This document shows, piece by piece, positions 10,575-13,819 of a stretch of DNA of 16,114 nucleotides. The stretch spans positions 1-16,114 of the forward strand of contig CALXDE010000203.1 of the NCBI GenBank assembly GCA_944386965.1, in the 5' to 3' direction. Within the stretch, counting starts at the first letter, position 1. Each line of letters begins with the position of its first letter. The position numbers and the translations under genes are program-made. The DNA is from an uncultured Oscillospiraceae bacterium (GTDB lineage Bacteria > Bacillota_A > Clostridia > Oscillospirales > Oscillospiraceae). A model generated the notes under the pieces. It was not told the origin of the DNA and searched no databases. It saw nothing but the letters and a program-made list of their open reading frames with translations.

Positions 10575-10617
10575 AAAAACCGGGAGGCCGGCGGCTTGTT
10601 CAGCTGCCGGCCTCCCG
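10575..10617 (-). terminator. Terminator of the DUF4130 gene, overlapping its last codons
   Basis: Stem of 12 perfect GC-rich pairs (10581-10592 with 10606-10617), extended by four more including one G-U, loop 10597-10601. On the minus strand it is followed by six T (complement of AAAAAA 10575-10580). The last codons and the stop (10600-10602) of the minus-strand gene lie inside the hairpin. There is no T-run on the plus side, so efficient stopping of sigF transcription is doubtful. Confidence 0.82.
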
Positions 10618-11484
10618 CTGTGCGCGCCGAGTCCTGTCCGGACCGCCTGCCCCTGCCGACGGGCTGTCCCGGAGGTGCCCGGCGGTCCCCGGGGCGGGTT
10701 CATACGCGCCGTCAGGCAGGGAGCGCTCCGCTTCGCTGCGGAAGAAATCCTCCCCCTGGAACTCTGTCATGGTGCCCCAATAGCGCATGGGCATCTGGGT
10801 GCGGCGGCATGTCGGGTTGTACCGCTCCCGGATGGCCACCGTGTCGTAAAACCGCTTCCACAGGCGGCGAAATTCCGCCTCCCGGGCATCCGGCCGGGCC
10901 ATCTCAAAGTGGTCCAGGGGCAGGATGCCCCACCGCCCGCCCTGGTAGAACAGGGCCTCCCGGTGGGTGCGGTCGTAGAGCAGAAGCCGTTCGTTGTAGA
11001 ACCGGGCGCAGAAGTGGGGCCGCAGCAGGGGCAGCACCCGGTTTTTGGGGGCGATCTCCCCCACCAGCGTACCCCCCAGGTCGGAAAAACGGACGAAGCC
11101 CTTGAGCAGGTGGGCTTCCCCCTCCAGGTGGCGCACCGCCTGGAGCAGGGGGAGCACCGCCGCGTCGCTGAGGCGGCGGAGCAGGGAGGGACCCTCGCTG
11201 TAGAGCGCGGCGATGAAGCGGAAGAGCATCATCTCCCGGTCTGGAGCGCAGGTGAGGAATCCCTTCTCCGTCAGCTCCCCGGCCCAGGCGGACCGGCGGC
11301 GGATACTCTCGGCAATGCGGCGGGCGTGGGCGCTGTCCGCCTCCACCCAGCGCACCGGGAACAGCGTGGGCTCCAGGTCCTCCGGGCCCTGAAAGCCCAT
11401 GGGGGGCTCTCTGTGGACATAACTCTCGAACACGCAGCAGAGAAACCCCTGAAAGCTGCCGTCGTAGCGATAGATGACGTCCAT
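10600..11484 (-). CDS. DUF4130 / TIGR03915 putative DNA metabolism protein, partner of a radical SAM protein
   Basis: 294 residues. Recognised by its N-terminus (MDVIYRYDGSFQGFLCCVFE), the middle HLLKGFVRFSDLGG (about 125-138), HFCARFYNERLLLYDRTHREA (about 157-177), and the end of the family body RRTQMPMRYWGTMTEF (about 227-242). TIGRFAMs describes such proteins as probable DNA metabolism proteins that occur with a radical SAM protein (TIGR03916), and in other bacteria as fused to a uracil-DNA-glycosylase-like domain; no such domain is present here. The molecular activity is unknown. The last 50 residues (about 243-294, PDGAYEPAPGTAGHLRDSPS...) are low-complexity and look like an extension beyond the family. 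ATG 11484 has AAGGAA about ten bases upstream. It is last in the run rSAM, TraX-like, DUF4130. Confidence 0.87.
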   Translation of the reverse strand: MDVIYRYDGSFQGFLCCVFESYVHREPPMGFQGPEDLEPTLFPVRWVEADSAHARRIAESIRRRSAWAGELTEKGFLTCAPDREMMLFRFIAALYSEGPSLLRRLSDAAVLPLLQAVRHLEGEAHLLKGFVRFSDLGGTLVGEIAPKNRVLPLLRPHFCARFYNERLLLYDRTHREALFYQGGRWGILPLDHFEMARPDAREAEFRRLWKRFYDTVAIRERYNPTCRRTQMPMRYWGTMTEFQGEDFFRSEAERSLPDGAYEPAPGTAGHLRDSPSAGAGGPDRTRRAQREAGS

Positions 11485-11510: not shown

Positions 11511-12371
11511 TTAGATGGGATGGCCCAGCCACACCGAGATGGCCCAAAGCGCGCTGAGGTGGGCAGGGTAGGCCCAGTAGAAGAGCCGGCGGTCGTCTCC
11601 TCCCCGCCTGCCGTTGTAGCACAGCACCAGCGCGGGGGCCAGCAGGGCGCCGATGGCCTGGCCGATGTCCAAGGCCGGCGGATACATCCACACCGCCGCC
11701 AGGGCCAGGACGGCAGCGCGCTGCCGCTTGTTCCGGCACAGCCACAGCAGGGCAAAGAGGAAGAGGGCGGTGTAGGAGTACTCCACTTCGATGCCCGTCC
11801 ACTCGTGGAGCAGCTGGTAGAGGATCAGGAAGGCCGCGGTCTTCCAGGCCCAGTCCCCCAGCCTCTGACACCAGGCAGGGAGCTTGTCTCCGCCCAGCAG
11901 GCCGACGCTGCCCACAAGCAGCAGGACGGCGATGAGCTGCGTCAGTTCCCACACGCCCAACTGTAAAAACACCGGCAGGATCAGCGCCAGGGGCGCCAGT
12001 CCCGCCAGCCGCCTCCAGCCGCGGAGCCGGGGTGTTCTCCACCGGAGCAGCAGCATCAGCGCCACCCCGCAGGCCAGGGTAAAGCAGATGTTGAGACTGC
12101 GCACCCTGGTCCAGAAGTCAAAATACTTATTGATCGTAAAGCAGTAGGGGATGGTGGAAATGAGGCCCATGACCGTCAGGCGCAGGGCGTATCTGGGCGC
12201 GGAGCGGGTGTGCCGGAACCCCTCGGCCAGAAAAAAGGCGTAGATCAGGAAGGCCATGCGGCCAAAGGCGCGCAGGGGATCATACAGGGGCGAGGCGGTC
12301 AGCAGCACCGCCGCCGTGTGGTCGCAGACCATGCTCAGCAGGGCCAGGAGCTTCAAAGCAAAGGCGGACAT
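11511..12371 (-). CDS. TraX family integral membrane protein
   Basis: 286 residues, polytopic. The N-terminal signature of the TraX family is clear: KLLALLSMVCDHTAAVLL (about 7-24), FGRMAFLIYAFFLAEGFRHT (about 36-55), and YALRLTVMGLISTIPYCFTI. Several more hydrophobic segments follow, including FTLACGVALMLLLRW, GLAPLALILPVFLQLGVWEL and AAVLALAAVWMY. F-plasmid TraX acetylates pilin; chromosomal relatives in Firmicutes have no established role, and no conjugation gene is nearby. GGAGG lies seven bases before ATG 12371. Only 26 bases separate it from the DUF4130 gene, so they are probably co-transcribed. It sits between two genes that are normally a pair, with no visible mechanistic link. Confidence 0.85.
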   Translation of the reverse strand: MSAFALKLLALLSMVCDHTAAVLLTASPLYDPLRAFGRMAFLIYAFFLAEGFRHTRSAPRYALRLTVMGLISTIPYCFTINKYFDFWTRVRSLNICFTLACGVALMLLLRWRTPRLRGWRRLAGLAPLALILPVFLQLGVWELTQLIAVLLLVGSVGLLGGDKLPAWCQRLGDWAWKTAAFLILYQLLHEWTGIEVEYSYTALFLFALLWLCRNKRQRAAVLALAAVWMYPPALDIGQAIGALLAPALVLCYNGRRGGDDRRLFYWAYPAHLSALWAISVWLGHPI

Positions 12372-12491: not shown

Positions 12492-13748
12492 TCAAAACAG
12501 GGACAGCTGCTCCATCTCCGGCTGGGGGAGGGCGATCCCCTCGGCGGCGATGAGCCCCCGGAGGACACTGTCCTGGGAGAATCGCAAGTTGTCTATGGTT
12601 TTTCCTTTACAGGTAATGAAATACTGGGCCCGCTTCATCACGACCCCCAGCTTTTTCAGATCCTCATGGCACAGCGTCCCGCCCCGGCGGGCGAAGCGGA
12701 TGCGCTGGGCGCTCTTCACGCCGATGCCCGGCACCCGCAGCAGCGCCTCATAGGCGGCGGTGTTCACCTCCACCGGAAAGAACTCCGGGTGGCGCAGCGC
12801 CCAGTTGCACTTGGGGTCCAAGAGGGGGTTGAAATCGGGCTGGTCGTCGCTGAGCAGCTCCTCCGCCTGAAAGCCGTAAAACCGCAGAAGCCAGTCCGCC
12901 TGGTAGAGCCGGTGCTCCCGCAGCAGGGGCGGTTTGGTGTCCGGGGCGGGGAGGAGGCTGTTCTCCACCACCGGCACATAGGCGGAGAAGAACACCCGCT
13001 TGAGCCCATAGCGGCGGTAGAGCCCCTCCGCCAGGCGGAGGATGTGCCGGTCCGAGTCCGCCGTGGCCCCCACAATGAGCTGGGTGCTCTGGCCGGCGGG
13101 GGCGAATCGGGGGGCGTGGCGGTACTTCACCAGCTCCCGCTTGTTCTCTTGGAGCGTGTCCTTGATCTGGCCCATGGGGGCCAGGATGGCGGCCTTGGTC
13201 TTGTTGGGGGCCAGGGTCCTGAGCCCCTGCTCCGAGGGCAGCTCGATATTGACGCTCAGCCGGTCCGCCAGCAGCCCCAGCCGCTCCACCAGCTCCGGGG
13301 CGGTGCCGGGGATGGCCTTGGCGTGGATGTACCCGTTGAAGCGGTACTCGTTGCGCAGGAGGGACAGGCAGCGGATCATGCGCTCGGTGGTGTAGTCCGG
13401 ATCTCTCAGCACCCCGGAGGAGAGGAAGAGGCCCTCGATGTAGTTGCGGCGGTAAAACTGGATGGTCAGCTCTGCCAGTTCCTCCGGTGTAAAGGCGACA
13501 CGCCTCACATCATTGCTGCACCGGTTGACGCAGTATTTGCAGTCGTACACGCAGAAATTGGTCATCAGCACCTTCAGCAGTGTGACGCACCGCCCGTCGG
13601 CGGAGAAGGTGTGGCAGCACCCGGCCAGGGAGCTGGAGGTGTTGCCGATATAGCCCTTCCGGCTGCCCCGGCGCGCGCCGCTGGAGGTGCAGGCCGCGTC
13701 ATACTTGGCCGCGTCGGTGAGGATGGTGAGCTTCTCCAGCACGTCCAC
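12492..13748 (-). CDS. Putative DNA modification/repair radical SAM protein (TIGR03916-like) with C-terminal clamp-binding motif
   Basis: 418 residues from GTG 13748. Conserved N-terminal block GYIGNTSSSLAGCCHTFSAD (about 32-51) with extra cysteines 44, 45 and 54, then the radical SAM cluster motif CVYDCKYC (Cys66, 70, 73), which holds the [4Fe-4S] that cleaves S-adenosylmethionine. LFLSSGVLRDPDYTTERM is family-typical. A helix-hairpin-helix DNA-binding segment, LLRVPGIGVKSAQRIRFARR, lies at about 336-355. The last five residues are QLSLF, the bacterial beta-clamp-binding consensus. GGGAGGG seven bases before GTG 13748 sets the start; a longer frame to 13862 crosses the promoter. The TIGRFAM family is described as always accompanied by a TIGR03914/03915 partner, here the DUF4130 gene two genes downstream. 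Substrate unknown. Confidence 0.92.
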   Translation of the reverse strand: MDVLEKLTILTDAAKYDAACTSSGARRGSRKGYIGNTSSSLAGCCHTFSADGRCVTLLKVLMTNFCVYDCKYCVNRCSNDVRRVAFTPEELAELTIQFYRRNYIEGLFLSSGVLRDPDYTTERMIRCLSLLRNEYRFNGYIHAKAIPGTAPELVERLGLLADRLSVNIELPSEQGLRTLAPNKTKAAILAPMGQIKDTLQENKRELVKYRHAPRFAPAGQSTQLIVGATADSDRHILRLAEGLYRRYGLKRVFFSAYVPVVENSLLPAPDTKPPLLREHRLYQADWLLRFYGFQAEELLSDDQPDFNPLLDPKCNWALRHPEFFPVEVNTAAYEALLRVPGIGVKSAQRIRFARRGGTLCHEDLKKLGVVMKRAQYFITCKGKTIDNLRFSQDSVLRGLIAAEGIALPQPEMEQLSLF

Positions 13749-13764: not shown

Positions 13765-13790
13765 GATAATAGAATATATGTTCGATTATC
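13765..13790. promoter_or_regulatory. LexA-like operator within an AT-rich dyad, radical SAM gene
   Basis: On the minus strand 13784-13771 reads CGAACATATATTCT. Against the Gram-positive SOS box CGAACRNRYGTTYC it has two mismatches, one in the GTTC half (ATTC). It is framed by an outer inverted repeat GATAAT (13765-13770) / ATTATC (13785-13790). It lies on the predicted transcription start, where a repressor would block initiation. Confidence 0.5.
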
Positions 13791-13819
13791 AGTATACAGG
13801 ACCAGCGGCCAAAAGTCAA
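13791..13819 (-). promoter_or_regulatory. Strong sigma-A promoter of the radical SAM gene
   Basis: Minus strand: TTGACT (13819-13814), 17 bases, TATACT (13796-13791). Each hexamer has one mismatch to consensus at optimal spacing. Predicted start near 13784, giving a leader of about 36 bases to GTG 13748. Confidence 0.75.

Follow-up and report, generated by a model that had tools for sequence, protein, structure and literature searches.

The TIGR03916 radical SAM enzyme encoded in the window (the whole 16,114-nucleotide stretch analyzed here, from an uncultured Oscillospiraceae bacterium) is very likely an SOS-induced client of the β sliding clamp, and we regard it as most likely a DNA-repair or DNA-processing enzyme that is recruited to DnaN by the pentapeptide QLSLF at its C-terminus (Table 1). 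Binding of DnaN by the tail is predicted with high confidence from the peptide and its conservation, and action of the enzyme on DNA in replication or repair is likely. Because relatives in five phyla keep a clamp-type peptide, the enzyme probably works on damaged DNA at sites of DNA copying.

Table 1. Features of the window discussed in the text (positions counted from the first nucleotide of the window).
Feature	Position	Strand	Basis or remark
DUF4130 / TIGR03915 partner gene	10600..11484	-	TIGR03915, 204.7 bits
TraX-family membrane protein gene, between the enzyme and DUF4130 genes	11511..12371	-	PF05857, E 4.2e-30
TIGR03916 radical SAM gene	12492..13748	-	likely start GTG at 13748, 418 aa
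QLSLF, C-terminal candidate clamp-binding motif, residues 414-418	12495..12509	-	sequence; CAGCTGTCCCTGTTT, with the stop codon at 12492-12494
Pro/Glu-rich linker, residues 402-413	12510..12545	-	low pLDDT; most variable, gap-rich alignment columns
Helix-hairpin-helix, residues 326-355, presumed DNA contact	12684..12773	-	PF12836
Radical SAM cluster motif CxxxCxxC (C66, C70, C73)	13530..13553	-	PF04055 match
LexA (SOS) box-like CGAACATATATTCT	13771..13784	-	1 mismatch to GAACN4GTTC
Promoter-like TTGACT-17-TATACT, immediately ahead of the LexA box	13791..13819	-	10/12 consensus positions

The window protein scores 650.4 bits against the TIGR03916 profile, for which the curated cut-off is 343.5, and the match extends to residue 455 of the 456 in the open reading frame as listed. 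Since listed homologues are mostly 416-426 amino acids long and GGGAGG precedes the GTG on the minus strand, the gene is most likely the 418-codon one given in Table 1, the 456-residue frame probably overshooting the true start. The protein has the CxxxCxxC motif and the partial TIM barrel of the radical SAM superfamily, and the three cluster cysteines C66, C70 and C73 are present in 193, 194 and 194, respectively, of the 194 family members compared below. Four more residues ahead of this motif (13587-13691, minus strand) are near-invariant, namely C20 (191/194), C45 (186/194), H46 (186/194) and C54 (190/194), and it is possible that they form an auxiliary cluster or metal site. A helix-hairpin-helix had been placed at about residues 336-355 by the first-pass annotation, in agreement with a PF12836 match to residues 326-355 (E 1.8e-4; 22.0 bits, under Pfam's 27-bit cut-off) and with P340, G341 and G343, which are invariant among the aligned members. 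The ComEA-related structure 2duy, matched by profile search with this segment (E 1.7e-4), was the only solved-structure relative of the enzyme recovered by sequence.

That this radical SAM protein ends in QLSLF was proposed in the first-pass annotation and can be read directly from the minus strand, where the stop codon comes next. The peptide fits the QL(S/D)LF clamp consensus, as was also proposed, and equals the peptide of Bacillus subtilis PolC; QL[SD]LF, or more broadly QxxLF, is described as the commonest clamp-binding motif (PMC12309361, in part). It follows the Pro/Glu-rich stretch that the same annotation had described as flexible: the AlphaFold2 model of the enzyme has a mean pLDDT of 92.6, which falls to 64 for residues 401-410 and to 58 for residues 411-418. 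By this prediction the tail (residues 401-418) is probably flexible, and the motif lies in an accessible segment.

Conservation of the peptide was assessed in 201 loci, 80 of them collected with peptide patterns drawn from outside the motif and 121 through a family search that covered the phyla of five centre genomes. In a control, the family search recovered a Caulobacter vibrioides copy that scores over the cut-off. A closed reading frame was present in 199 loci, which together with the window gave 194 proteins distinct over their last 300 residues, from Bacillota, Bacteroidota, Pseudomonadota, Actinomycetota and Fibrobacterota. Phylum labels come from record titles for loci L001-L080, with unspecific titles (e.g., L021 and L024) counted as Bacillota, and from the named centre genome of each search for all other loci. 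For one gene with an internal TGA (L047) the longest piece alone was used, and one member in two overlapping pieces (G076) enters no count.

Since an aligner can force such residues into register, we give more weight to counts made on unaligned tails. QL[SD]LF occurs in 69 of the 194 tails (0.035 in shuffled tails), the strict pattern Q[LM]xL[FW] in 120 (0.5 shuffled) and the pentapeptide pattern Q[LMI]x[LIMF][FWLY] in 144 (4.0 shuffled), and among 645 other stop-to-stop reading frames of at least 150 codons from the same loci the respective numbers were 0, 0 and 4. The pentapeptide pattern is found in 58/67 Bacillota, 31/40 Pseudomonadota, 16/18 Actinomycetota, 15/15 Fibrobacterota and 24/54 Bacteroidota. 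Adding a hexapeptide form brings the count to 167 (6.9 shuffled), and the further addition of QxxL[FW] and a QLxLPG form brings it to 186 (9.8 shuffled), the hexapeptide and QLxLPG patterns having been drawn up only after inspection of the data; eight tails have no recognizable form of the motif. In a MAFFT alignment of the same 194 proteins the five positions are occupied by Q (99%), L (78%; M 11%), S (54%), L (80%; I 12%) and F (77%; W 12%), and the linker ahead of them contains up to 53% gaps. Far from being absent or random in close homologues, an outcome that the first-pass annotation had held out against its own proposal, the motif is kept in five phyla, and on these sequence counts its occurrence is beyond chance.

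The TIGR03916 model itself spans the motif and members picked by HMM rank are therefore biased towards it. Among 79 members chosen otherwise, 51 have the strict pattern and 73 the looser union pattern, and among 25 lower-ranked members the numbers are 13 and 15, the remaining ten having either QL-x-[LF]-[PS]-G-type ends (seven) or QxSLF (three). The enzymes of Bacteroidota deviate most, with endings such as QLKIDF, QLPLNF and QYSIDW.

Two further kinds of C-terminal sequence were seen in these tails. QLVLPGLF-type endings, seen in some Bacteroidota (most of L097-L110 and L258-L265), are present in 12 of the 194. A second signature, resembling [ST]x[ST]G[EQ][LI], is present in 20 of the 194 (0.22 in shuffled tails) and often lies about 20 residues past the clamp motif; its carriers are 14 Bacillota and 6 Actinomycetota (L023, L026, L028, L030, L031, L045, L047, L053, L060, L142-L145, L153, L154, L160, L161, L164, L165 and L175), and the window protein is without it.

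A TIGR03915/DUF4130 gene lies near the enzyme gene in the window, with one TraX-family gene between them. With trimmed seeds, DUF4130 was found in 178 of the 201 loci, on the same strand as the enzyme in all 178 and within 100 bases of the enzyme stop codon in 149; in four loci (L002, L004, L007 and L008) the two genes are 1.0 to 1.3 kb apart at the place where the window has TraX. In all three proteobacterial partners tested, DUF4130 is fused to UdgX. The DUF4130 model bears a weak fold resemblance to RecJ/Cdc45 (DHH/DHHA1), with no obvious metal ligands, and we take the proteins matched by fold to be members of the DHH superfamily; a sequence search with DUF4130 returned nothing better than E 0.033 (S100-A6, ribosomal L30 and others). 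We considered a partner with a clamp motif of its own and rejected it, as the pentapeptide pattern is absent from the last 60 residues of all 165 closed DUF4130 reading frames; the strict pattern matched none of these proteins at any position, and the looser union pattern matched two of the 165.

The frequent company of DUF4130, on the strand of the enzyme wherever it was found and mostly just behind it, would also suit an arrangement in which the receptor of the terminal peptide is DUF4130, or some other cellular protein, instead of DnaN. However, 14 of 16 members that lack a DUF4130 match, with at least 1300 bases seen after the enzyme, keep the union-pattern motif (a partner encoded elsewhere being possible for them), and the peptide not only equals the PolC motif (PMC12309361, in part) but also shows the same kind of variation as PolC motifs. 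We consider docking to such a receptor improbable and docking to the clamp the better account of the peptide.

Other neighbors are more sporadic. In two of the 201 loci (L023 and L026) the gene immediately upstream of the enzyme encodes a Y-family polymerase, many of the flanks being only about 1.5 kb long. In Pusillibacter faecalis (L224; NZ_AP023421.1) the enzyme and DUF4130 form a block with a sigma factor, spoIIAB and a STAS gene, in a record described as a 504-kb plasmid; a valine tRNA ligase is encoded close by. Ten records of a phage collection matched the enzyme, of which one was inspected: in this record, labeled Acinetobacter phage MD-2021a (L223; CAKLQH020000003.1), glyQ, glyS and aidB stand beside the operon and the enzyme ends in QLSLGF. 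This sole inspected record looks like a bacterial chromosome by these three genes, and we make no claim of phage origin.

In the promoter region of the window gene, the LexA box-like CGAACATATATTCT stands directly downstream of a promoter-like sequence, and the search that returned the latter gave a mean of 0.0 sites in shuffled sequence. For the wider family, we counted boxes upstream of 181 of the 194 members (those with a start anchor and at least 150 bases upstream), using what we take to be the LexA patterns of the Bacillus, alphaproteobacterial and Fibrobacter types. Among Bacillota, GAACN4GTTC with at most one mismatch precedes 39 of 59 enzyme genes, compared with 9 of 192 control upstreams (3.9 in shuffled sequence), and the exact box precedes 14 of the 59 and none of the 192 controls; the other 20 upstreams have no box at one mismatch. 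Exact GAACN7GAAC is present in 30/40 Pseudomonadota (0/66 controls) and a LexA box in 8/15 Actinomycetota (1/27 controls), and the Fibrobacterota pattern, at a loose limit of two mismatches, matched 15/15 (7/25 controls; exact in 1/15). In Bacteroidota exact CTAAN5TTAG was found in just 7 of 52 upstreams (1/128 controls) and in 11 of 52 at one mismatch (5.8 shuffled), and GGAN5TCC gave no clear signal there (5/52, 3.0 shuffled).

These counts suggest that the enzyme is probably induced by DNA damage, and the upstream LexA boxes lend independent support to a role in the response to such damage. SOS control is already known in print for some lineages: links have been published for COG4277 and for CAC3343-CAC3344, in Bacteroidetes, Verrucomicrobia, Alphaproteobacteria and Clostridium acetobutylicum, and the enrichment found here agrees with those predictions (PMC8565304 and PMC3828012, each in part). 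The same boxes could serve a checkpoint like that of SocB, a protein that uses a clamp motif to block elongation (PMC9690074, in part); the clamp-bound enzyme would then mainly stall or occlude replication after damage and direct its radical chemistry at another substrate. The near-invariant CxxxCxxC with additional cysteines, the helix-hairpin-helix and a partner fused to UdgX (3/3 proteobacterial partners tested) are instead the signature of an enzyme that acts on DNA, and we consider it unlikely that a clamp-bound SOS enzyme with these features serves chiefly as a block.

Placement of the motif along the tail varies widely. Among the 120 members with the strict pattern, the linker from core to motif measures 13 to 49 residues and the distance from motif to C-terminus 0 to 83 residues, which is what a docking peptide should show. 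A terminal hydrophobic peptide might alternatively be a signal by which a protease removes the enzyme once the SOS response is over, and in 43 of the 120 the motif does form the very end of the protein; in the other 77, however, it is internal to the tail, with as many as 83 residues following it, and its glutamine is conserved at 99%, as clamp motifs require, which makes clearance by this route very improbable. The 57 exact copies of QLSLF are encoded by 44 distinct 15-base spellings, indicating that the amino acids are under selection. A chance or inherited likeness without function can be dismissed as next to impossible, for although close relatives do share the peptide by descent, 120 tails have it where 0.5 are expected, its spellings are many and it persists in five phyla across a linker that hardly aligns.

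A short sister clade of the enzyme, sub-threshold for the family model and from Fibrobacterota, ends directly past the helix-hairpin-helix. None of the 11 proteins taken from 18 such matches carries the motif; of the seven left out, five contain an internal stop. In the tree, these proteins form a single clade (100/100) and motif-bearing members fall on either side of the midpoint root, and the motif is for this reason probably old and was lost by the short clade, the position of the true root being uncertain. The 11 tail-less sisters and the eight tails without a motif form indicate that the fold can do without docking.

The preferred reading, in which the enzyme is a clamp client, leads to the following proposal. 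Inactivation of LexA by DNA damage would switch on the enzyme together with its DUF4130 partner, and the flexible C-terminal tail would let QLSLF dock in DnaN's hydrophobic cleft, thereby concentrating the enzyme on newly replicated DNA. The helix-hairpin-helix would hold the DNA while the [4Fe-4S]/SAM centre acted by radical chemistry on a base that is damaged or modified, and DUF4130, with UdgX where the two are fused, would recognize or handle the substrate. In its fullest form, to which we give slightly more credence than doubt, this would be a widespread, clamp-tethered repair machine based on radical chemistry: an SOS-induced radical SAM/helix-hairpin-helix enzyme that DnaN delivers to newly replicated DNA to act on altered bases or lesions there, with DUF4130 as a scaffold resembling RecJ/Cdc45 and perhaps catalytically silent, and with fused UdgX in Proteobacteria. 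The TIGR03916/TIGR03915 pair is widespread, and its two-gene operon carries no annotation beyond "putative" DNA repair. If the proposal is true, a radical SAM enzyme works with the replication clamp, the set of clamp-bound proteins would gain radical SAM enzymes, and DUF4130 gains a place in the cell; the motif points to a cellular location for the enzyme and provides handles for finding its substrate.

We found no report in the open-access literature of a clamp motif in the TIGR03916 family, nor a paper there that lists a radical SAM enzyme as a clamp client. Measured against the TIGR03916/TIGR03915 two-gene system, the window has the full family match with the partner nearby and differs by the TraX gene between the two. 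SplB (COG1533) is likewise a radical SAM enzyme tied to DNA repair and SOS (PMC8565304 and PMC3765255, each in part); the 50 best matches of the enzyme model to solved structures do not include it, a result that is uninformative either way. A search for DinB in 20 genomes outside Bacillota gave a match in 15 genomes and 20 loci in all, with six rows readable (L227, L231, L232, L233, L237 and L241). DinB tails of Bacteroidota include the hexapeptides QLSLDF, QLTIDF and QLKIPF, which resemble the enzyme variants QLKIDF and QLPLNF. Within single genomes the peptides differ: in none of the four Bacteroidota genomes with both readable did DinB and enzyme match (QLTIDF and QLSLF, QLKIPF and QLTLF, QLRLF and QPTLF, QLSLDF and QYPIDW, respectively), and covariation of the two is unsupported. 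The QLVLPGLF-type ends of some Bacteroidota enzymes resemble QLSLPL, the tight-binding clamp peptide of Hda (PMC12309361, in part).

The closest parallel is PolC. Of the PolC loci in the enzyme-carrying genomes of 21 relatives, one (L222) fell under the cut-off and is uncounted; PolC has Qxx[LFI]F at its end or within five residues of it in 20 of 20, and QLSLF in five. The last five residues of B. subtilis PolC, QLSLF, bind DnaN with a KD of 3.8 µM and could not be truncated (PMC12309361, in part), and the window enzyme has these same five residues at its extreme C-terminus. Clamp clients are already known as a kind, and what the sequence would add is the radical SAM client: PolC is a polymerase with a proven motif, whereas the client in the window is a radical SAM enzyme whose binding is predicted.
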